24,929 nt of DNA from positions 1 to 24,929 of the IMG/VR virus record IMGVR_UViG_3300025674_000360. The stretch is one strand, 5' to 3'. Both the position numbers and the translations under genes were made by a program. Origin of the DNA: a virus. Shown piece after piece: positions 1,329-23,756 of the stretch. The notes under the pieces are model-generated. The model saw nothing but the letters and a program-made list of their open reading frames with translations. It was not told the origin of the DNA and searched no databases. Each line of letters starts with the position of its first letter. Within the stretch, counting starts at the first letter, position 1.

Positions 1329-3107
1329 CTAATAATTTGGGTGGTGTCCGTTTCTAGGCATATCTATAGGTGCTATTGCTACTTCTTTAGGGTTTTTAGG
1401 TGCTTTCCATCCTTCTCGTATGGCTTGGTTTACATTCTTAAAGTTTGTCCCTTGTAGCGCATTTCCTCCGTATGTCTCTCCGTCTTTCTTTAGTTTCTTT
1501 TTGTATACTCGTCGCTCCCATCTGTGGTAACAATTAACACCGCCCTTGTATTTGAAAATAGAGTAGTTTCTACCCTTGTGTCCGTGTTTCTTGTTTACCC
1601 CTTTTGCACTCATAAACCCTATGTCTTCTTTGCGATAGAGTTTACCCGCTCCAATCATATTTCTACAAAACAATCTTGATTCTCCTTTAGGTTGTTTACG
1701 AGTTCCCTTCACGTACTTGTATCTTACCTTCCATAAGTCGGTGTCTTGTGTACTATCTTGGGTTGCGCTTAGTTTTAATCCGTTTAAGTAAGACTCCGCA
1801 TCAAAGTCCTCTGGTTCATCTCCTACATCTTCTACGTCTATAAGTTCATACCCTTCTGGTTCGTCCTCTCCTAAGTCTTTTATCTCATCCCATAACTCTC
1901 CTGCTAAATCGTCATCTAAGAAAGGTCTCTGGTCTGATAGCTTTTGTCCTGTCTCTTCTTCTACTTGTTCTTTAGTAATCGCATTGTCTAAGTCTGTAAA
2001 CTCTAACGGCTGAAGCGTTTTAAAGTATAAATTAAGCGTTATCTCGTTGTAGGCAAGTACTTGGTCAAAGGCATCTATTAAAAGTCGCTGAAACGGTCTT
2101 ATAACGGTGTTATCCATTAGGGTAGAAGCCGTCTTTAGTTCGTCTGCGTTATTTCCTAGTCCGCTTTGGTCTTTAATACCTAATAACATAGGAGATACTA
2201 CCCTGTGCGATACCATTATCTTACGCATAGCCTCATCGCTTAAAAACTGATACTGATTATGTGCGTCTGATAACTGTACGGGTTCTATACTTGCACTTGT
2301 TTCCGCAGAATCGTTAAAGGCTAATATAAACTTACCCGCATTAGACGTACCGCTAAACTTCTGGTAGATTCTTTGCTCTATTAGGCTTCTTTCTTCTTCG
2401 TTAGGTACTCCGTTGTTAAAGTTAATCAACATAGAAGGTGCTAAGCCGTTCATTATGTTGTTTAGGTGGAAGTTTGATACCTCTTCTTCTATCTCTGCGT
2501 ACTGTATACCACCTTGATAGTCTACGGGACTGTAATAATAAAACCCCGCTCTATATGGCTTTACAAATAGTATCTCTATTGCTTCTCTTGAACAACCAAA
2601 CGCAGGTATTCTTTTTAAATCGTCCCCTTTACGGTACTTATCCCAATTAGGATGATAGTAATACGCCTCTACATCTCCTTTAGCGTTACACTTTTCCGCT
2701 CTTAGCGTTTCTACGGGATAATGCTCTACACTTGTAATCTTACTTCTGTCTTTAGAGTAGATAACCTGCATAGCACAACCGCCCATAAGTTTTAAATCGT
2801 AAACTAACTTACGTACACAATCTTTAGAAAATAAAGACTTCATCTGTGCGTATTCGTTAGGTCTTCTTGAAGAGTCGGTAGCATCTAAACCTTGTCCGTA
2901 TATCATCTCGGAAATACCGTTTATGATAGCGTTGTTTGTAGGGCTTCCGTTGTATCGGTCTATTAGGTATTGGTAGTAGTTGTTGTCCGCTCCGTATTCT
3001 ACAAAGTTTTGGTTTCTCTTTTCTACTATTTCGGGAGAAGTATAAGTAGCTAAATTAACTACCCGTAAATCGTTGGTATACTTTGTGGGTTTGTGTTGTC
3101 TACTCAT
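1329..3107 (-). CDS. Phage portal protein with C-terminal extension
   Basis: This 592-residue protein would form the dodecameric portal at one capsid vertex, through which DNA enters and leaves. The first 400 or so residues look like an HK97/SPP1-type portal: an early NNAIINGISEMIYGQGLD segment, a central YYSPVDYQGGIQYAEIEEEVSNFHLNNI helix region, and the MLLGIKDQSGLGNNADELKTA segment typical of Bacteroidota phage portals. Residues 395-440 are very acidic. The last 140 residues are basic and Cys/His-containing (LFCRNM, NCYHRWERRVYKKKL), resembling the C-terminus of MuF or minor-head proteins; this would be a fusion. The start overlaps the upstream stop as ATGA. The portal call is solid; the fused-domain reading is less so. 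Confidence 0.85.
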   Translation of the reverse strand: MSRQHKPTKYTNDLRVVNLATYTSPEIVEKRNQNFVEYGADNNYYQYLIDRYNGSPTNNAIINGISEMIYGQGLDATDSSRRPNEYAQMKSLFSKDCVRKLVYDLKLMGGCAMQVIYSKDRSKITSVEHYPVETLRAEKCNAKGDVEAYYYHPNWDKYRKGDDLKRIPAFGCSREAIEILFVKPYRAGFYYYSPVDYQGGIQYAEIEEEVSNFHLNNIMNGLAPSMLINFNNGVPNEEERSLIEQRIYQKFSGTSNAGKFILAFNDSAETSASIEPVQLSDAHNQYQFLSDEAMRKIMVSHRVVSPMLLGIKDQSGLGNNADELKTASTLMDNTVIRPFQRLLIDAFDQVLAYNEITLNLYFKTLQPLEFTDLDNAITKEQVEEETGQKLSDQRPFLDDDLAGELWDEIKDLGEDEPEGYELIDVEDVGDEPEDFDAESYLNGLKLSATQDSTQDTDLWKVRYKYVKGTRKQPKGESRLFCRNMIGAGKLYRKEDIGFMSAKGVNKKHGHKGRNYSIFKYKGGVNCYHRWERRVYKKKLKKDGETYGGNALQGTNFKNVNQAIREGWKAPKNPKEVAIAPIDMPRNGHHPNY

Positions 3108-3433
3108 AATATTATATACTCGTTATCATAACTTGTTTCTTGTACGTATTGATTTGTATTAACCGAGTAGTCAGAACTGTCTGTACAAAATATCTTACCC
3201 TTATAAATCACATCTGCGCCATCTAAAAGCGTTAGATTATAAAAATTACCTTCTGTAAGAGAAAATGCGTTAGAGAAGACTAAATAGCCTTTATTTTTAG
3301 TTGCAGCTACACTTGTGTATGTGTCGGTGTCGTTAGTAGATTCGTTTCGTACTTTTACCGTAATACTTGAAGGGTAACTTCTTGGAATTACCTTTACTTC
3401 TTGTGCGCTTGTACTCGTGGTTAAAACCTTCAT
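3104..3433 (-). CDS. Small beta-rich virion-block protein, unknown function
   Basis: The protein has 109 residues with alternating hydrophobic and polar stretches (SSITVKVRNEST, GNFYNLTLLDGADVIYKGKIFCTD) that suggest an all-beta fold. It is coupled to the portal gene by an ATGA overlap. It begins a new block: a U-tailed hairpin lies just upstream, and the start is preceded by the repeated element TTTCGTTATATAAGTATG. Similar short proteins ending in a Y.DNEYI-like sequence sit next to portals in related phages, as far as I recall. A connector or decoration role is possible but not shown. Confidence 0.65.
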   Translation of the reverse strand: MKVLTTSTSAQEVKVIPRSYPSSITVKVRNESTNDTDTYTSVAATKNKGYLVFSNAFSLTEGNFYNLTLLDGADVIYKGKIFCTDSSDYSVNTNQYVQETSYDNEYIIL

Positions 3434-3449
3434 ACTTATATAACGAAAT
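3431..3449 (-). promoter_or_regulatory. Repeated start element CGTTATATAAGTATG, copy 1
   Basis: On the minus strand it reads ATTTCGTTATATAAGTATG, with the final ATG being the start codon of the gene at 3433. The same 15-base core sits at three other starts (7334, 13883, 17427). Here it follows a terminator-like hairpin, so it may be a phage promoter giving a very short leader, or a translation-enhancing leader. A TTGC lies 25 bases upstream of the TTTCG, with the same spacing as at the 13883 copy. Confidence 0.5.
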
Positions 3450-3475
3450 AAAATTGGGATTTTGTAGTTTTAAGC

Positions 3476-3503
3476 AAAAAAAAGGGTAACATTTCTGCTA
3501 CCC
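3476..3503 (-). terminator. Rho-independent terminator after the 3525-4040 gene
   Basis: On the minus strand GGGTAGC, a loop AGAAAT and GTTACCC form a 7-bp stem with one G-U pair, followed directly by eight T. It lies just after the stop of the putative tail-tube gene and before the block starting at 3433. Confidence 0.85.
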
Positions 3504-3524
3504 CTTCTCTATAAGTGTTAAAAA

Positions 3525-4040
3525 TTACGATGCTGCCGTTACACTTGGTGTAAGTTGTGTCGCACTTGCATCTACCGTTACCGCAGTTGTTAAGGCAATC
3601 GGTGGAGTTTTTTCTAATGCTTCAAAAGTTAAAGTAAACCCAGAGTAATCCCCTAAGTTAGCACCCGTTGCTAGAGTACCACCTATTAAATCACATCCGT
3701 GTTCTGCACCTACTAACCATTGTTGCCCGTTATAGTCTTCTACGACAATATTAGGTTTATTAGCAGCTAGTAGTTTGATTTCGTCAGACGTAGCACTATC
3801 CAGTAAAGGAAGTTGCACGTTTACCGTTTGGGTGTAAAAGATAGAGTTGTTTTCTCTTGAACCGTTAATAGCAGTCTCTAAAGAAGATGCACCTTTAAGG
3901 TCAAACTGATACCAATCAGCCGTACCCGCAGTAACGGTAGTCATCGTACCATCATACTCCGCAAAGTAAATCGTCTTTAGTCCTCCTACGGTCTTGTTAC
4001 AAGGTAACTCTCTACCGTTTAAGGTTAATGTACAAGCCAT
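3525..4040 (-). CDS. Putative major tail (tube) protein
   Basis: This 171-residue protein has the N-terminus MACTLTLNGRELPCNKTVGG, a DWYQFDLKG segment and a C-terminal GANLGDYSGFTLTFEALEKTPP motif. The predicted beta-rich fold and the G...LGD..G.TLTFEA ending resemble tail-tube-like proteins in Bacteroidota siphophages. The gene stands alone between two strong terminators, immediately after the major capsid gene, which implies separately controlled and probably abundant expression, as expected of a major virion protein. A head decoration protein is the main alternative. The Ala/Thr-rich tail (about the last 20 residues) looks unstructured. Confidence 0.5.
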   Translation of the reverse strand: MACTLTLNGRELPCNKTVGGLKTIYFAEYDGTMTTVTAGTADWYQFDLKGASSLETAINGSRENNSIFYTQTVNVQLPLLDSATSDEIKLLAANKPNIVVEDYNGQQWLVGAEHGCDLIGGTLATGANLGDYSGFTLTFEALEKTPPIALTTAVTVDASATQLTPSVTAAS

Positions 4041-4053
4041 ATTTATAAGTATT

Positions 4054-4088
4054 AAAAAAAGGGATAGGGTACACCCCTACCCCCTTTT
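4054..4088 (-). terminator. Rho-independent terminator after the major capsid gene
   Basis: On the minus strand GGGGTAGGG, a five-base loop GTGTA and CCCTATCCC form a 9-bp stem with one G-U pair, followed by seven T. It sits between the capsid stop and the start of the next gene and probably sets capsid mRNA levels or protects its 3' end. Confidence 0.85.
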
Positions 4089-4105
4089 ATATGTTAAAAA
4101 ATAAT

Positions 4106-5101
4106 TTATGATGCAGATGCAGTTCTGTGGATTACATCAGATGCAACGCCTACTTGAACTCCCGCAGTAAATCTAGAGATTACTCTTACGTTTTGAGAAC
4201 CATCTAAGTCTGCCATATCAAGCAACTTAACTTCGTTGTGGTCAGATAATAAACCTGTTCCGAAGAATAAGTTAGACTTCTGTCCTGCGAAGGCTCTGTT
4301 TCCAGACATACCTGTACATCTCTGTAATGGAATACCATCAAAAGTAAGCTGAGACTCCATTTGGTAGAATGTAGTTCCTTTGTTGTCTACACCGTTTGCT
4401 CCTACGTTAGTTGCAAATCCTCCTAATGCTCTTACATACGCTTGGTAAACGTTGTTAGGTACGTAAATCATTAAGTCCTCTTTTCCGTATACCGCAGAAG
4501 GGATAGCATCTACCATACCACCTAAGAAGTCAATTACGTTAGAAGAAGTAACAGTAGTAGAACCAATGTTGATTCCGCTTGATGTTATTAAAGTTTCAAA
4601 TCCGTCAAACAATGCAGTAGCAGCAGTTGCTCCGTCATCGTCTCCTTGCCAGATGTTCTTCTCTACTGATTCTGCAATTTTACCTGCTACGTGAGCCAAG
4701 ATAAAGTCTGCAAAAGTAGGAGGTAGGTTATCAAAAGCAGAGTAACCCATACCAACTGCTTCCCAATCAGAACGAAAATCTTTCTTACAAAGTTCAAGGT
4801 TTACCTGTAACTCTTTTGGTGTAAGAATAGACTCTGTTAAAGATAGTCTGTCATTCCCCGAAGAAATAGCAGAGAAGTCGCAAGACCCGTCTCTTACAAT
4901 GTTGTTGTCATCTAGTACTTTAAGTACTTCTTGATACTTAACGTTTGGCTTGATTGTAATCGCACCGTCGTTAAGCGTTTTTCCTGATAGAAGAGCAGCA
5001 GCAATATATTCCCCTGCAAATTCTCCTGCATACGTAGTAGTGATAGTTTCTACTGACCCACTACCTGTAATGTCTCTAAAGTTGTGTTTCTGAATATTCA
5101 T
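4106..5101 (-). CDS. Major capsid protein (HK97-fold)
   Basis: This 331-residue protein is the main shell protein of the head. It resembles major capsid proteins of Bacteroidota siphophages: an N-terminal FAGEYIAAALLSGKTL segment, ELCKKDFRSDWEAV near residue 107, GKIAESVEKNIWQGD in the spine-helix region, and C-terminal FRFTAG-like RVISRFTAGVQVGVASDVIH. Its length fits an HK97-type coat protein without a long cleaved delta domain; a separate acidic gene just upstream could supply scaffolding. The start overlaps that gene's stop by one base (TAATG). A strong hairpin terminator follows the gene. Confidence 0.88.
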   Translation of the reverse strand: MNIQKHNFRDITGSGSVETITTTYAGEFAGEYIAAALLSGKTLNDGAITIKPNVKYQEVLKVLDDNNIVRDGSCDFSAISSGNDRLSLTESILTPKELQVNLELCKKDFRSDWEAVGMGYSAFDNLPPTFADFILAHVAGKIAESVEKNIWQGDDDGATAATALFDGFETLITSSGINIGSTTVTSSNVIDFLGGMVDAIPSAVYGKEDLMIYVPNNVYQAYVRALGGFATNVGANGVDNKGTTFYQMESQLTFDGIPLQRCTGMSGNRAFAGQKSNLFFGTGLLSDHNEVKLLDMADLDGSQNVRVISRFTAGVQVGVASDVIHRTASAS

Positions 5102-5631
5102 TATGAAAATAGTTTACTAAAAATTAAATCTGTTGTTGTTCCTTTTTTGTTATGTGATAGTTTTCTAAACTTTTGTACGATTTGTTCCTCTGGGTTGTGT
5201 TTTAGAGGTTCGGTAGCAGGTTCTTGTGCGGATAATTCCTCTTTAACCTCTTCTGCCATTTCTTCCTCTTTTTTACCTAAGTCTTGAATCATAGCTTTAA
5301 TTTCGTCAATCGCTTGTCCGAACTCCTCACGAGTTACATAAGCCATCTCTTCTTCAGCAGCCTCTACCTCTTCGGTTTCATTAGCCTTAATTTCCTTAAT
5401 GATACCTTCTTCTTCTACCGCTAGTATTCTTCCATCCTCTAATGTGTATTCGCCTACAGGGAGAGCAATCTTTTCTTCCTCTGTAATGATAAATACTTCA
5501 TTATTGGCTTCAAACACTTCGGCTTCTAAGACAGTACCATTATCTAGTGTCATTTGTGCGAGTTCTACCTTTTCGGCATCCTCCACTCCCAATAGGGTTT
5601 TAATTTGATTTAACATATCTACAGTATTCAT
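5101..5631 (-). CDS. Acidic scaffold-like capsid assembly protein (candidate)
   Basis: The protein has 176 residues. The first half is beta-rich and acidic (VELAQMTLDNGTVLEAEVFE, ALPVGEYTLEDGRILAVEEE). The second half is a predicted coiled coil rich in Glu (ETEEVEAAEEEMAYVTREEF and EEEMAEEVKEELSAQ), ending in a basic tail, QKFRKLSHNKKG. An acidic coiled-coil protein with a basic C-terminus, encoded between the protease and the capsid protein and coupled to it by TAATG, fits a scaffolding protein. No catalytic motif is seen. The role is inference from composition and position. Confidence 0.6.
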   Translation of the reverse strand: MNTVDMLNQIKTLLGVEDAEKVELAQMTLDNGTVLEAEVFEANNEVFIITEEEKIALPVGEYTLEDGRILAVEEEGIIKEIKANETEEVEAAEEEMAYVTREEFGQAIDEIKAMIQDLGKKEEEMAEEVKEELSAQEPATEPLKHNPEEQIVQKFRKLSHNKKGTTTDLIFSKLFS

Positions 5632-5641
5632 ATTTATTTAT

Positions 5642-6082
5642 TTATGCTTTTTTCTGGATTATAAACCACTCTGTACCATCAGACCATATCGCTATACCTT
5701 CATACGCTTTATTTATCTCATACGCTCCTGTGCCATCTAATGTATCTCCACTTGCGGGTGTAAGGTCTACTCTTGTGTTAGTATCAAAAGTATTGTCTGT
5801 GATAAATCTTATTTTTCTGTTTGTGCTTGATGCAGCCGTAGGAAGTGTGTAAGTAGCCGTACCATTCGCACCACTCCAACTTAAATGAACAATATGTGCA
5901 TCTGGGTAATCTGCTAAATCTACGTTTACACTCGCTTGTGCCGTTATGTTAGTAGCTATTAGGTAGTTTTTTATGCCGTTTACCGTTGTTTTCTTTGTTG
6001 TACCGCTTTGTACTAAAGGGAGTTGTTCTGTACCCCCTAAAGCCGTAGCCGTATCTAATGCACTTATTCTTTTGTCTGCCAT
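5642..6082 (-). CDS. Small structural protein (decoration/head-fibre-like)
   Basis: This 146-residue protein begins MADKRISALDTATALGGTEQ and continues LPLVQSGTTKKTTVNGIKNY, a common opening in phage fibre and decoration proteins. The rest is beta-rich, with GTATYTLPTAASSTNRKIRF and a C-terminal AIWSDGTEWFIIQKKA, suggesting a small trimeric beta appendage. Its start overlaps the upstream stop as TAATG. A capsid decoration or head-fibre role is inference from fold impression and its place between protease and scaffold. Confidence 0.55.
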   Translation of the reverse strand: MADKRISALDTATALGGTEQLPLVQSGTTKKTTVNGIKNYLIATNITAQASVNVDLADYPDAHIVHLSWSGANGTATYTLPTAASSTNRKIRFITDNTFDTNTRVDLTPASGDTLDGTGAYEINKAYEGIAIWSDGTEWFIIQKKA

Positions 6083-6279
6083 TATAATACTATTTTACTA
6101 TCGTTTTCTTGTAATATAAAAGACGTATTGTCTTGTTGCATTAAGTAAAAACTCGTTTTATGTATGCTTCCTATTCCTTGCGCCCATAAAGACCCATCAC
6201 AACACTTCCTAGAGTATGTTCCGTTCTTACATAAACAGGCTCTTTTGTTTCCTTTAGGACTTGTTCTACTTGGTGTCAT
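6082..6279 (-). CDS. Small Cys-rich protein, unknown
   Basis: I chose the ATG at 6279, which overlaps the protease stop as ATGA and gives 65 residues; an in-frame ATG at 6294 would overlap the protease by 19 bases. The sequence contains KRACLCKNGTYSRKCCDG and then QGIG, with four Cys in CxC and CC pairs, so metal binding is possible. I recall similar YS.KCCDG...QGIG mini-proteins in flavobacterial phages, without a known function. It sits between head-assembly genes. Confidence 0.6.
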   Translation of the reverse strand: MTPSRTSPKGNKRACLCKNGTYSRKCCDGSLWAQGIGSIHKTSFYLMQQDNTSFILQENDSKIVL

Positions 6280-7334
6280 TTTATCGGTACGCAATTAGGG
6301 ACTAAACGCCCGTTTTTCTCCTTCATACCTATCATCTCATACCCATCTTGACAAGGTGCTTTAAGGTCTATTAAGTCTAATTCTTTTAACTTACTCTCCG
6401 CCCAACGTTTTGCGGCTTTACCTCCCCACAATAAATAAGAAATCGTCCCACAGGCTTCTGTATTACCTTCGTCGTAATATTCCTCCGCCCTAGAGAGATA
6501 AGAATACATCCTCTTTATTGTGTCTACTGTTACAGGTCTACCCGCTGCTAAATCAGCACTCCTTTGTTTTCCTGTTTCTGTAGCGCACTTGTTACCCTGT
6601 TTTTCGTTTAGTTCTCTACCTCGCTTTGCGTTGTTCTTTACCGCATCTGGGTAATCCGAATAAGATTCTAATTCTACGCCCGTTAGAAGCCTTCTTAACT
6701 CATCTACTACACCTTCTGCCACTTCTTCTGCAAAGTCCTCGTAGAACGCATCAAAATCCTTTTTACAACTACCGCAAGACCCATCGCATTCCTTACAATG
6801 CTCTTTTAAGCTTTCTTGTGGTCTTTCCATCTTATCGGCAAAATAGCCTTCTATAGAGAATCCTTTTACTTTACCTGTTTTTACAAAATCGTTCCATACT
6901 TCCTCGTTGTTTACCTTTACCGCACCCATCCAAGTACCTACGGGAACTTCCATTTTGTAATATCTGCTTTTGTCTTTTTTATCGTCCTCAACAATCCAAC
7001 TCTCTACTAAAGAAAGTCCTTGTAATGGCTCTCTGTGTTCTAAGGTTGAGTTATTCTGATAACCGTTCATTAAAAAGAGTTCGCTTGTCTTCTTAATGGT
7101 TTCTTTGGAAAAGTATACGTAGTAGTCTTCGTCTTTTCCGTTTCTGTATATTGGTTTGTTTGGAACAAGTAAAGCACCTATCAAGATTCTTTGGTCTTTG
7201 TCTGCTTCTGCAAACTTGATTTCCTCTTTTAGTGCTATGAAATCTTCTTCTATAGCGGGTCGTTCTACTACCGAAATAGCATCAACTCCGCTTATATCGT
7301 TTTCCTCGTCTAATATTAATTCTACGATTCTCAT
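6276..7334 (-). CDS. XkdF-like prohead serine protease
   Basis: This 352-residue protein probably matures the prohead by cleaving assembly proteins. Residues 45-165 match the XkdF/S78-type protease family: LIGALLVPNKPIYR, YYVYFSKETIKK, a probable catalytic His100 in STLEHR, and a probable catalytic Ser160 in VKGFSIEGYF. After the protease domain comes a Cys cluster (C180, C183, C187, C190) and then a region around residues 225-320 containing YPDAVKNNAKRGRELNEKQG and GGKAAKRWAESKL. That region recurs in Bacteroidota phage proteins and has no known job. The last stretch ends NGRLVPNCVPIK. The gene opens a new block with the repeated CGTTATATAAGTATG element at its start. Confidence 0.85.
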   Translation of the reverse strand: MRIVELILDEENDISGVDAISVVERPAIEEDFIALKEEIKFAEADKDQRILIGALLVPNKPIYRNGKDEDYYVYFSKETIKKTSELFLMNGYQNNSTLEHREPLQGLSLVESWIVEDDKKDKSRYYKMEVPVGTWMGAVKVNNEEVWNDFVKTGKVKGFSIEGYFADKMERPQESLKEHCKECDGSCGSCKKDFDAFYEDFAEEVAEGVVDELRRLLTGVELESYSDYPDAVKNNAKRGRELNEKQGNKCATETGKQRSADLAAGRPVTVDTIKRMYSYLSRAEEYYDEGNTEACGTISYLLWGGKAAKRWAESKLKELDLIDLKAPCQDGYEMIGMKEKNGRLVPNCVPIK

Positions 7335-7350
7335 ACTTATATAACGTTTT
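7332..7350 (-). promoter_or_regulatory. Repeated start element CGTTATATAAGTATG, copy 2
   Basis: Minus strand AAAACGTTATATAAGTATG, ending in the start codon of the XkdF gene. It is identical over the 15-base core to the copy at 3433. It lies in a 52-base gap after the tape-measure gene, which itself has no clear terminator hairpin. Confidence 0.5.
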
Positions 7351-7386
7351 TAAGTTTTAATTTTGCATTTTCAACACAACTTTTTT

Positions 7387-8928
7387 TTATAAGGTCGCTT
7401 CACTAACTATATTTCGGTCTAAACTTTGTGCCGAAGTAACCTCATTACTTACCACGTAGGCTTTTACAGGTTCACTACGTTGTTCTGCTATTACATTAGC
7501 TAATTGGTTAGTACCCGCTTGACCGATTACATTAAACGCAGGAGGAGCAGATGCAACCGCACCGCCTCCACCTCCAAAACCTCCTCTTGATGGTATGTTA
7601 GGTATTGGTGTACTATTGATTGCTCTTACCGCCTGTAAACCACTTGCTAAGGTTGTAGCCGTTGCAGTTATTTTTTGTATTGTTCCAAAAGGTTCTGGTA
7701 ATGTTGTTTCGTTTTTCCAAACTTGTGTTACCCCTTGATATGTGTTTATTAAGGCTTGTGCCGATGCTGCTGCTTTACCCGCCTTACTATTTGCACCTAA
7801 TAACCCTGCTATTTGTCCTAATGTATCTCCTGCAAACTTTAGTTTTTGTTCGTTGGTTAGCTTGTCTGCTTTTGTTTCTTCTTCTTTTTGTTTTTGGTAG
7901 TTTTTAAGTTGTTCTGCACCCGCTTCTGCACGTAGTTGTGTTTCTTTATCTATTCTAACTTGTAGCCTTGCAAAAGCCATATCATCAACCGCTTCTACTT
8001 TTACTACACCTTCCATTTTTTTGGCAATCTCGCCATCTATGTAGGCATCATTAAAGGCTTTTTGTTCTAGGAGTAACGCTTGTCTTCTAGTAAAGGCTTC
8101 TTTTTGTCTTGTAAGAGATTCTGTTTCTAAATCAGACACCCTTGCTACTACTTCTGCATACGCTCTTCTATCTTCTCTACTGCTTTCTCCTAATGCTAAT
8201 TGTTCTTTTAAGGTGTCTCTTCTTTGTTTTGCTATATCAAGTTCTAACTGTAACAACTTATCCTCACTTGCTAAAACCCTATCTAAAGCAGCTACCCTTT
8301 CGTCAAATGTTTTGTTTCTGTCCTCTGCTATTAATTTATCTTCAGCTATAGACTTTCTTAGTTCTGCACCAGAGGTAATAAGTTTTATCTCTGCATTTTC
8401 AATAGCTATTAAGGACTTTTCTAATTCTCTCGCTAAATCTACCTCTCTTTGTATTTCATCTCCTAAACCTTTAAACTGGTCTTTAGCAGAATCTAATGCG
8501 CCTCGCCAGTCCCCTTTAAATAGTTTTGTAAGAGACTCGCCTAATCCACTAATACGGTCTATAATAACATCGGTAGCAGCCTTTATACCCGCAAATGCTT
8601 CTCTTAATTTATCCGCCCCTCTTTCTGTTTTAGTAAAGAAGGTAATTAAAGTACCAAAGGCAACTATTAAAGCACCGATACCCGTAGATATTAAAGCACC
8701 TTTTAGGGTCTTCATACCTTTTATAACCCCACCGATAGAACTCGCAAATCCCTTAGTTTTAGTTATAGCACCCCCAAAAACACCATCAGCTAAACCACCT
8801 ATTTCCTCAAAGTTATTTTGTGTTTCCTTTGTTTCTTTTTGTACATCTTCTAATTGGTTCTTTAGCTTCTTTAAATCTTTTTCAGATTCTCCTGTTTTTA
8901 CTTCTACTTCTACTACATATTTTTCCAT
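7387..8928 (-). CDS. Tail tape measure protein
   Basis: This 513-residue protein sets tail length and occupies the tube lumen. It has an N-terminal coiled coil (SEKDLKKLKNQLEDVQKETK), a hydrophobic segment at about 79-98 (LISTGIGALIVAFGTLITFF), long charged helices through residue 370, and an Ala/Gly-rich C-terminus with ATATTLASGLQAVRAINSTP, a GGFGGGGG stretch and VVSNEVTSAQSLDRNI. That arrangement is characteristic of Bacteroidota siphophage tape measures. It is short for the family, implying a tail of the order of 75 nm using the usual 1.5 angstrom per residue. The ATG follows an AAACAAAGAAAGACA leader and overlaps the small upstream ORF by 16 bases. Confidence 0.85.
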   Translation of the reverse strand: MEKYVVEVEVKTGESEKDLKKLKNQLEDVQKETKETQNNFEEIGGLADGVFGGAITKTKGFASSIGGVIKGMKTLKGALISTGIGALIVAFGTLITFFTKTERGADKLREAFAGIKAATDVIIDRISGLGESLTKLFKGDWRGALDSAKDQFKGLGDEIQREVDLARELEKSLIAIENAEIKLITSGAELRKSIAEDKLIAEDRNKTFDERVAALDRVLASEDKLLQLELDIAKQRRDTLKEQLALGESSREDRRAYAEVVARVSDLETESLTRQKEAFTRRQALLLEQKAFNDAYIDGEIAKKMEGVVKVEAVDDMAFARLQVRIDKETQLRAEAGAEQLKNYQKQKEEETKADKLTNEQKLKFAGDTLGQIAGLLGANSKAGKAAASAQALINTYQGVTQVWKNETTLPEPFGTIQKITATATTLASGLQAVRAINSTPIPNIPSRGGFGGGGGAVASAPPAFNVIGQAGTNQLANVIAEQRSEPVKAYVVSNEVTSAQSLDRNIVSEATL

Positions 8929-18103: not shown

Positions 18104-18864
18104 AATGTTCCTCTTATTACGTAATCTTCTAAACTCTCTCCTTGCTCAAAGAACTCGTTATAGGTTTCTACTGCGTGTTGTACTTTTTGTTCTCCAGAAA
18201 AATAAAACTCTTCTGATACATCAAAAATCCCTATGTCTAACGTCCCTTTGTCTATTACTAAAAATCTAAAGTCTTTGTAGTCTTTCTTAAATAACTCACA
18301 ATATATAAAACATTGACTATCGTACCCGTAGGCTTTAGCTTTGTAGGTTGGAAAGGCTTTTAGGTCTTGTGTGGTCTTTAAGTCTACTAGAGCGTTTCCT
18401 AGTACGTCTGCCTTTGCTCTAAACGGGTAAGCAAATATAAAATCTATTGCGGGTTTCTCAAACTCTGAACCAGATAATAAATCTACTGCGTAATGGTTTT
18501 TAAGTAGTGCATCTGCCATACGTTCTGCTTCGTTCTTTTCCTTGATTGTATAAACCTCTCCTAGTTCTATCTTAGCATCCTTATACTTTTTAGAGTTCTT
18601 GCTCTGTACGTCTACGAAATTAAGTTGCTCAAACTTTTGGGTCTCAAGTATTGCCATATGAAACAATCTCCCGTTTCTTAGTGCTTGGGTTTCTCCGTTG
18701 CCGTACTCTGTTACATACCTGTACTTTTTAGGAGATTCGTTTAGTAGTTTAACCGAAGAAGAACTTAGTGCTGCTTTTCCTAAATAGCCGTAGTAAAATG
18801 TATCATCGTACATCTTTTGCAGGAGTTCTTCTTTGTCCCACGTTTTGTAATCTAATAGTGTCAT
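18100..18864 (-). CDS. RecE-like PD-(D/E)XK exonuclease
   Basis: The 254-residue protein resembles the nuclease domain of exodeoxyribonuclease VIII (RecE-like/DUF3799): LSSSSVKLLNESPKKY, RNGRLFHMAILE with His69, FRAKADVLGNALVDLKTT with D153 and D161-x-K163, then KAKAYGYDSQCFIY. Such enzymes chew one strand of double-stranded ends to allow phage single-strand annealing recombination. A RecT or Erf partner is not seen in this window; the OB-fold DUF3127 protein at 22903 could assist. It is coupled by ATGA at both ends (with 18861-19217 and the DnaA-like gene). Confidence 0.8.
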   Translation of the reverse strand: MTLLDYKTWDKEELLQKMYDDTFYYGYLGKAALSSSSVKLLNESPKKYRYVTEYGNGETQALRNGRLFHMAILETQKFEQLNFVDVQSKNSKKYKDAKIELGEVYTIKEKNEAERMADALLKNHYAVDLLSGSEFEKPAIDFIFAYPFRAKADVLGNALVDLKTTQDLKAFPTYKAKAYGYDSQCFIYCELFKKDYKDFRFLVIDKGTLDIGIFDVSEEFYFSGEQKVQHAVETYNEFFEQGESLEDYVIRGTL

Positions 18865-19217
18865 ATTCTTTGCTCTAGTGCGTGTATGTCTTTTGTTAGT
18901 ATTTCTATTTCTTCGTGTAATTTGCTTTGGCTTTCTTCTGCTTTTTCCTGTAACGCTCTAGCCTTTAGTAAATCTCTCTCTAGCTGATTGATGATATACT
19001 GATACGTAAAAGCATTAGACCGTAGTCGCTCGGTGTAGATGTGTATCTCACAAAACCACCCTAATAATTTAAGTACGGCTTCTGTAGGTTTACGTTTTAG
19101 TTGTTCATTAAGTAAGGTGGAGACTTTATCTATATTGTCTGTGTATATAGCCCACTCTTTGTCTTCTTGTTTGAGTTGTTTAGTAACTCGTATCTGTAGT
19201 TCTGTTGGTTCTACCAT
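18861..19217 (-). CDS. Coiled-coil protein, unknown
   Basis: The 118-residue protein, MVEPTELQIRVTKQLKQEDK at its start, has a helical middle (LLGWFCEIHIYTERLRSN) and a C-terminal coiled coil (LERDLLKARALQEKAEESQS and LHEEIEILTKDIHALEQRI). It precedes and is ATGA-coupled to the RecE-like exonuclease, so it may be an accessory to recombination. The start has the AAAAACAAAGATT leader. No domain is recognised. Confidence 0.65.
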   Translation of the reverse strand: MVEPTELQIRVTKQLKQEDKEWAIYTDNIDKVSTLLNEQLKRKPTEAVLKLLGWFCEIHIYTERLRSNAFTYQYIINQLERDLLKARALQEKAEESQSKLHEEIEILTKDIHALEQRI

Positions 19218-19228
19218 AATCTTTGTTT

Positions 19229-19576
19229 TTAGCCTATATCGTAAGGGTCTGTTCCGTTTTTAGTTATAAAGTCAGCTATAGCGTGTGTAGCAGAAGGAGG
19301 TGTATATCCGCCCACGTAATAACTCTTTATGGTTACATTTCCGTATTTCTCAACAAGCATCATAGCACTCTCTTCTGTGATTATCCATTCGTAATCGCTC
19401 TCCTTATATATAACCTCAACATCTTCGTAAATCTTCTTCTTTGATTCCCAACCCTTCTCTGTTGGTTGCTTAATGGACTCAATTAAAGTTATGTCTTTGT
19501 CTCCTTCTAAAAGCGAAAGAGAACCTCTATTAAGACTTCCGTCTCCGTTAACTTGCAAGTAATATTCTTTTGTCAT
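19229..19576 (-). CDS. Unknown protein downstream of the hammerhead ribozyme
   Basis: The 115-residue protein, MTKEYYLQVNGDGSLNRGSL at the N-terminus, contains EDVEVIYKESDYEWIITEES and SYYVGGYTPPSATHAIADFI. It has no membrane segment and no domain I can name. Its ATG lies 19 bases after the predicted self-cleavage site of the ribozyme, behind an ACAAAAACAAAGACA leader, so its mRNA would start with a 5'-hydroxyl end if cleavage occurs. It is the second gene of the transcript from the promoter-like motif at 19938. Confidence 0.7.
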   Translation of the reverse strand: MTKEYYLQVNGDGSLNRGSLSLLEGDKDITLIESIKQPTEKGWESKKKIYEDVEVIYKESDYEWIITEESAMMLVEKYGNVTIKSYYVGGYTPPSATHAIADFITKNGTDPYDIG

Positions 19577-19589
19577 TGTCTTTGTTTTT

Positions 19590-19639
19590 GTCTAAGACGC
19601 TTCGCAGCGTTTCGCCTACTAAAGGCTCGTCAGTTAGAC
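19590..19639 (-). ncRNA. Type I hammerhead ribozyme
   Basis: Read 5' to 3' on the minus strand, all hammerhead parts are present in order. Stem I 5' strand is GUCUAA (19639-19634). The core CUGACGA (19633-19627) follows. Stem II is GCCU-UUAGU-AGGC (19626-19614). The core GAA (19613-19611) leads into stem III ACGCU with a GCGA tetraloop and AGCGU (19610-19597). The cleavage base C17 is at 19596, and stem I 3' strand UUAGAC occupies 19595-19590. Every base of the catalytic core (C3 U4 G5 A6 G8 A9, G12 A13 A14, A15.1-U16.1, H17) fits, and all three helices are fully paired. Stem I is the open helix, hence type I. Predicted cleavage is between 19596 and 19595. It fills the 70-base gap between two small genes. 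Confidence 0.95.
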
Positions 19640-19646
19640 TTTGTTA

Positions 19647-19916
19647 TTATAGTTGTTTTTCTGTAACACGAAGGTTAAATCCTTCACACGCTTTTTTGAT
19701 TTTTTCGTACAAGTCATAACCGTTTGAGTTTGTAGATGTACTATAAAAATACCAACCATCATACTCTTTAACCATACCTATTTTTTTTGCTTCCCTCCAA
19801 TTCATACCATTTGCACGAACAGATATAAAAGAAGCATCAAGGTGTTCTTCTTTGTGATTGTCCTTAATTGTTTGTAATTCTCTTTTTAAGTTTTGATAAT
19901 CTGTAATTGTTTTCAT
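19647..19916 (-). CDS. Unknown small protein upstream of the hammerhead ribozyme
   Basis: The 89-residue protein begins MKTITDYQNLKRELQTIKDN and contains FISVRANGMNWREAKKIGMV and YDLYEKIKKACEGFNLRVTE. It is soluble, mixed alpha/beta, with no recognised family. Its stop codon lies only seven bases before the ribozyme's first stem, so the ribozyme forms the 3' end of its mRNA after cleavage. It has its own promoter-like motif (19938-19969) and the AAAACAAAGAAT leader. Confidence 0.65.
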   Translation of the reverse strand: MKTITDYQNLKRELQTIKDNHKEEHLDASFISVRANGMNWREAKKIGMVKEYDGWYFYSTSTNSNGYDLYEKIKKACEGFNLRVTEKQL

Positions 19917-19937: not shown

Positions 19938-19969
19938 GCAATATAATACTTATTAACAATATCACAAAC
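19938..19969 (-). promoter_or_regulatory. Promoter-like motif P2 shared with 14589-14617
   Basis: On the minus strand GTTTGTGATATTGTTAATAAG is followed by TATTATATTGC. The block ATTGTTAATAAGT-NN-TATATT matches P1 at 14589-14617. The gene at 19916, and through it the ribozyme-bearing transcript, starts about 20 bases downstream. It is the only gap of notable size between 19647 and 20430. Confidence 0.55.
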
Positions 19970-23633: not shown

Positions 23634-23668
23634 CAAATATAAACAAAATTGTTAAACAAAAAAGCAAA
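23634..23668 (-). promoter_or_regulatory. Flavobacterial-type promoter of the replication operon
   Basis: On the minus strand TATATTTG (23641-23634) is a perfect TAnnTTTG -7 element. TTTG-containing tracts lie upstream (CTTTTTTGTTTAACAATTTTG) at roughly the spacing of a -33 element. It lies directly after a terminator and before the short ORF at 23616, so it likely starts the operon of the OB-fold protein, helicase and sigma-like gene. Confidence 0.65.
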
Positions 23669-23697
23669 AAAAAGAGGTGCAGTAAACTACACCCCTC
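23666..23697 (-). terminator. Rho-independent terminator after ninG
   Basis: On the minus strand GAGGGGTGTAG, TTTA loop and CTGCACCTC form a stem (two-base GG bulge, one G-U pair), followed by eight T. It ends the transcript from the ncRNA/NinG region and precedes the replication-operon promoter. Confidence 0.8.
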
Positions 23698-23756
23698 CAA
23701 AACAAAGACTAATTATGGGAAAGAAGTACGTAAATATACTACTATTCTACATTACG

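Follow-up and report, generated by a model that had tools for sequence, protein, structure and literature searches.

A predicted type I hammerhead ribozyme at the joint between two exchangeable small phage genes

Between two small genes of a 24.9-kb virus record (hereafter "the window", i.e., the whole stretch of DNA that was analysed), which encodes its main genes on the minus strand, positions 19590..19639 (-) make up what is, judged from sequence, a complete type I hammerhead ribozyme (HHR). With a probability of roughly 0.75, we regard this element as an intercistronic HHR that cuts the polycistronic transcript of an accessory-gene cassette, serving as both mRNA processor and insulator.

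The predicted ribozyme comprises, from 19639 to 19590, a 6-bp stem I (GUCUAA, 19639-19634, with UUAGAC, 19595-19590), the core CUGACGA (19633-19627), an arm II of 4 bp with the loop UUAGU (GCCU(UUAGU)AGGC, 19626-19614), the GAA triplet (19613-19611), a 5-bp stem III with the loop GCGA (ACGCU(GCGA)AGCGU, 19610-19597) and C17 (19596). All three stems are fully paired, stem I is open, stems II and III are closed by their loops, and the core, GAA and C17 follow the hammerhead consensus, whose position for cleavage places the predicted cut between C17 and 19595 (19595..19596 (-)). The CUGANGA...GAA...UH core is present together with the standard core-adjacent pairs (A15.1-U16.1, 10.1-11.1, 1.1-2.1), as are all core positions demanded by Perreault et al. 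2011 (PMC3088659), N7 being a C, which is permitted. The core, the paired stems and the GCGA loop had been recognized in the initial annotation of this DNA and are borne out by sequence, fold and match to the Rfam family RF00163; the cut between 19596 and 19595 that it had proposed agrees with the consensus.

The MFE fold of the segment is the hammerhead, at an energy z of only -1.9, so that fold energy alone is not decisive. A scan with an HHR descriptor gave one match in the window and 0 in 200 first-order Markov simulated windows, and the pattern of core plus stem II occurred in 0 of 100 dinucleotide shuffles. The type I covariance-model check that had been suggested for this element returned a match of RF00163 (Hammerhead_1) that spans exactly 19590-19639 and covers core, topology and all model positions, with 29.3 bits (E 3.6e-7) against a curated cut-off of 34; the syntenic HHR of a relative, L129, reaches 38.8 bits and thus exceeds this cut-off. 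An off-register type III hammerhead match (21.3 bits, E 2.6) from the whole-window cmscan was rejected, the direct RF00163 search having resolved the register.

The HHR lies on the coding strand between the co-directional open reading frames (ORFs) of gene A (19647..19916 (-), 89 aa) and gene B (19229..19576 (-), 115 aa), neither of which matches a Pfam or PHROGs family; both are held in a variable cassette that is bounded by two conserved genes. The stop codon of gene A ends 7 nt before stem I, and the predicted cut is separated from the gene B ATG at 19576 by 19 nt, so that cleavage would leave gene B with a 19-nt leader (UUAGACAAAAACAAAGACA, 19577..19595 (-)). This leader carries AAACAAAG, as had been noted initially, and leaders of this type are likewise found ahead of gene A and of the gene at 18861-19217. 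Upstream of gene A, pattern matching points to a promoter-like site at 19938..19968 (-) (TTTG, 19 nt, TATATTGC), its TTTG...TAnnTTTG layout being of a kind known from Bacteroidetes. Since, in addition, the terminase of the window is closest to those of the Nonlabens phages P12024L and P12024S (57% identity), a flavobacterial host is likely. Between genes A and B, a pattern scan of the window gave no Bacteroidetes-type promoter match, and a sigma-70-type scan gave no promoter on the minus strand. Among the downstream neighbours is a PD-(D/E)XK, exonuclease VIII-like gene (Pfam/PHROGs). Elsewhere on the same strand, the window encodes a small protein with a DnaA C-terminal helix-turn-helix domain (PF08299; 17642-18103 (-)), possibly a replication-related DNA binder, and contains a terminator-like hairpin with a T-run (23660-23700 (-)) inside a chance-level match to the Rfam L20 leader.

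The relatives at this locus were found via protein searches with the neighbouring genes and not via the ribozyme. L002 is nearly identical to the window, L130 and L132 end before the joint, and only four locus-spanning relatives differ from the window, two of which (L081 and L131) share one cassette. In these two, gene A is replaced by an unrelated gene and the gene B counterpart has 30% identity over 87 aa, its DNA giving no alignment; in L081, an 87-bp island containing the ribozyme and the leader is 92% identical to the window. In L129, the HHR is present between two genes that are both unrelated to A and B, and its stem II reads GUCC/GGAC versus GCCU/AGGC in the window, i.e., the changes are compensatory. 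L128 possesses neither the A/B gene pair nor the HHR; there, the promoter-like stretch, which is similar at 19938..19968 of the window, in L081, L129, L131 and in this empty-site relative, leads directly into the counterpart of the gene at 18861-19217. Within this small, protein-found sample, the HHR is retained while both neighbouring genes change and is absent together with the genes in L128; therefore, the comparison assigns the predicted ribozyme to the joint rather than to a single gene. Conservation of the hammerhead core in related phages, another check that had been suggested, was likewise found. No hammerhead was detected by descriptor or model in Nonlabens phage P12024L, nor in relatives of the left-flank gene at a greater distance (about 50-56% identity), and annotated phages gave no match by blastn of an 81-nt segment or by tblastn of gene B, so that these searches revealed the element itself in no cultured phage.

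Homologues of A and B at other loci are arranged differently. In L003-L008, the gene B homologues (53-62%) lack a ribozyme and are directly preceded by a TAnnTTTG promoter element, and in L254 the gene A homologue (68%) possesses a promoter element of its own and, downstream, a terminator-like hairpin with a T-run (GGGGGCAGCAATGCCCCTTTT). At the A/B joint, the ribozyme seems to take the place of both terminator and promoter.

Comparison of ribozymes supports both the helices and a tertiary contact. Among 14 ribozymes of equal layout, double changes occur in 10 of the 15 pairs with 100% pairing, and the helix covariation score is 0.61 versus 0.04-0.08 for slid versions. In 149 of 160 ribozymes that were not selected on these two positions, the last base of loop II and the base +7 after the cut form the combination U/A, A/U or G/G (shuffles: mean 77, maximum 98). 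Seven loci (L009, L011, L053, L086, L104, L399 and L424) have A/U and U/A on the same contig; shared descent alone therefore fails to explain this covariation. Two main HHR classes can be distinguished, one with a UNANU pentaloop and an A before and after stem I, the other with an NNAA tetraloop and a U at +7. When ribozymes were picked by core, stem II and loop II, 114 of 116 were complete, and all 114 have an A flanking both sides of a 6-bp stem I; in the class of the window, conservation extends to the A at 19640, which flanks stem I opposite 19589. A tertiary contact between loop II and +7 is predicted, for which the window has the U/A form, with the U at 19618 (-) and the A at 19589 (-) as partners.

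The element of the window belongs to a larger set. IMG/VR was scanned with a pattern consisting of the core and part of stem II, yielding at least 117 usable sites; among the matches listed, 82 of 117 viral sites complete into hammerheads via stems I and III (flank shuffles: 0.2%). In cellular genomes, only 6 of 117 pattern matches are complete hammerheads, and most cellular matches are therefore due to chance. Public viral contigs contain at least about 290 unique HHRs, most of them on the coding strand and just ahead of a start codon. The ATG of an ORF of at least 40 aa lies within 40 nt of the cut in 71% of 122 unique ribozymes (antisense 5.7%, random same-strand positions 18.5%), and in a held-out set of 114 ribozymes the median distance from cut to start is 26 nt (IQR 22-32), with 83% within 45 nt versus 2.6% in antisense. 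The ORFs that follow the ribozymes are short, with a median of 80 aa. On the other side, in the held-out set, the median stop codon of the upstream ORF overlaps stem I in its first base, under a 50-codon ORF limit and with approximate ORF calling; the statistics for a 40-codon limit were set aside, as they include spurious ORFs ending in the core UGA.

Many contigs carry arrays of HHRs on one strand. L053 (39.8-kb record G001) has 14 model matches, all on one strand, with differing stems and both tertiary pair types, and L425 has, at about 2297-8620 (record G011:C1:8348-14671), 13 hammerhead matches within 6.3 kb, or almost one for each small gene. In this very dense natural array, most ribozymes are followed by a leader with an AGGAGG-type site. 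Near the hammerheads of L014, a GroEL-like chaperonin gene (535 aa, identified by eye) is located on the opposite strand (2966-4573 (-)).

In pairs of related contigs, 60 of 151 classifiable ribozyme joints were kept as short islands versus 16 of 1086 other same-strand joints, a contrast that is inflated by the choice of contigs for having ribozymes and by the non-independence of the pairs. This colinear island test was chosen after the data had been seen and replaced a test of gene exchange based on ribozyme proximity to alignment breakpoints, which gave the opposite result (28% versus 43% at other joints) because retained islands sit mid-way inside replaced blocks. The protein-found family of the window itself is a cleaner case for retention of the joint than this wider set, but it is small.

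The most likely sequence of events is as follows. Transcription would start at the promoter-like site before gene A, and the ribozyme would fold as it emerges, kept active by the loop II to +7 contact to which the covariation points. Cleavage after C17 would yield two messages. That of gene A would terminate in hairpins and bear a 2',3'-cyclic phosphate; the other, comprising gene B and the subsequent genes, would begin with a 5'-OH and a short leader of the standard type, similar to those that the gene B homologues receive from promoters. In this way, the ribozyme would take over the tasks of both terminator and promoter at the joint, and the genes on either side could therefore be exchanged with no effect on the translation or decay of their neighbours. 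For the phage, the advantage may lie in the insulation of exchangeable genes or in separate decay, both of which fit the sequence alike. As to the intercistronic processing put forward in the initial annotation, the placement between A and B stands and has strong comparative support, with cleavage being predicted.

Other readings of the element have to be weighed against its role as processor and insulator. It is doubtful, albeit worth serious consideration, that the ribozyme cleaves but mainly sets decay, providing a protected 3' end for gene A and a 5'-OH by which gene B evades 5'-monophosphate-dependent decay, with no insulation involved. Such ends are the established chemistry of hammerhead products, and stems II and III would form the end of the gene A product; however, decay alone does not explain why the ribozyme marks joints at which genes change. 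This very association, i.e., ribozyme islands between exchanged genes here and in other phages, could also be taken to mean that the conserved 60-90 bp stretch is mainly a patch of DNA homology for cassette recombination, with self-cleavage incidental or a relic. We consider this improbable, given that ribozymes of the same joint differ by compensatory changes (L129 versus the window; L014 versus L105), which lower DNA identity while the fold is kept, that stems differ among the ribozymes of one phage, and that core and tertiary pair are kept where helix sequences are not.

A similarly low probability is assigned to a gating of cleavage by translation of gene A, where a terminating ribosome would cover the 5' strand of stem I and delay the cut, so that the ribozyme reports on upstream translation. 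The 7-nt spacing between the gene A stop and stem I and the median stop position in the held-out set (approximate ORF calling) would be in line with this, but tight packing of phage genes yields the same spacing. That the element is a chance or decayed hammerhead-like sequence is hardly credible: its model score under the Rfam cut-off would fit, yet the absence of matches in simulations and shuffles, the helix and tertiary covariation and the retention in relatives all speak against it. The role as intercistronic processor and insulator is the reading we prefer.

From synthetic biology, RiboJ is known as a ribozyme insulator; like the HHR of the window it is a hammerhead just before a gene, for which cleavage gives a uniform leader, but it is engineered and placed after a promoter, whereas the window HHR is natural and located between genes. 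Multiple hammerheads flanking prophage genes have been reported, for which processing into gene-length mRNAs was proposed; cleavage was demonstrated for three such arrays in vitro and for one array in E. coli (Perreault et al. 2011, PMC3088659). Intergenic phage hammerheads, their arrays and the processing idea have, hence, been known since 2011, and the initial view that intercistronic use in a phage would be notable in itself was too strong. In both cases, hammerheads flank phage genes of varying identity; in contrast to the 2011 arrays, comparison of relatives here reveals a ribozyme that stays in place as the genes on both sides change, up to 13 ribozymes are arrayed in 6.3 kb among the matches listed, and a two-way tertiary signature is described. 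A hammerhead variant 13 nt upstream of a gene start in Halovirus HF1/HF2, reported as probably active in vivo (PMC3088659), shares the location just upstream of a phage gene but has core insertions and an extremely halophilic host, while the core in the window is canonical. For minimal hammerheads, a trans-Hoogsteen contact between +7 and loop II was reported to raise activity (O'Rourke, Estell, Scott 2015, as cited in PMC9217987), with no gain from that contact in the construct of the citing study itself (PMC9217987). As cited there, these minimal hammerheads share with the phage HHRs a 6-bp arm and the +7 to loop II contact, but pair a U at +7 with an A of the tetraloop, whereas the phage HHRs have A/U, U/A and G/G, the window combining a loop U with an A at +7. 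A 2017 review regarded the role of prokaryotic and phage hammerheads as an open question (PMC6155905), and in the open-access literature, which leaves aside most subscription journals, no later paper settling it was found. As far as checked, the present comparison adds to this knowledge a single joint that occurs empty, swapped or full, as well as the covariation of a tertiary pair.

Close relatives in which one joint is full, swapped or empty make this locus a natural experiment, which also offers a small construct by which processing, insulation and decay can be separated. If the ribozyme of the window does act as an insulator, ribozymes would be a real part of gene organisation in many phages, and nature would hold a ready library of ribozyme insulators. 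Tentatively, and at somewhat less than even odds, we suggest that in many phages an HHR at each accessory-gene joint serves as portable punctuation that replaces terminator and promoter, gives each gene a short 5'-OH leader and permits free swapping, its activity being kept by the covarying loop II/+7 pair; if so, these elements would be a natural form of the synthetic ribozyme insulator.
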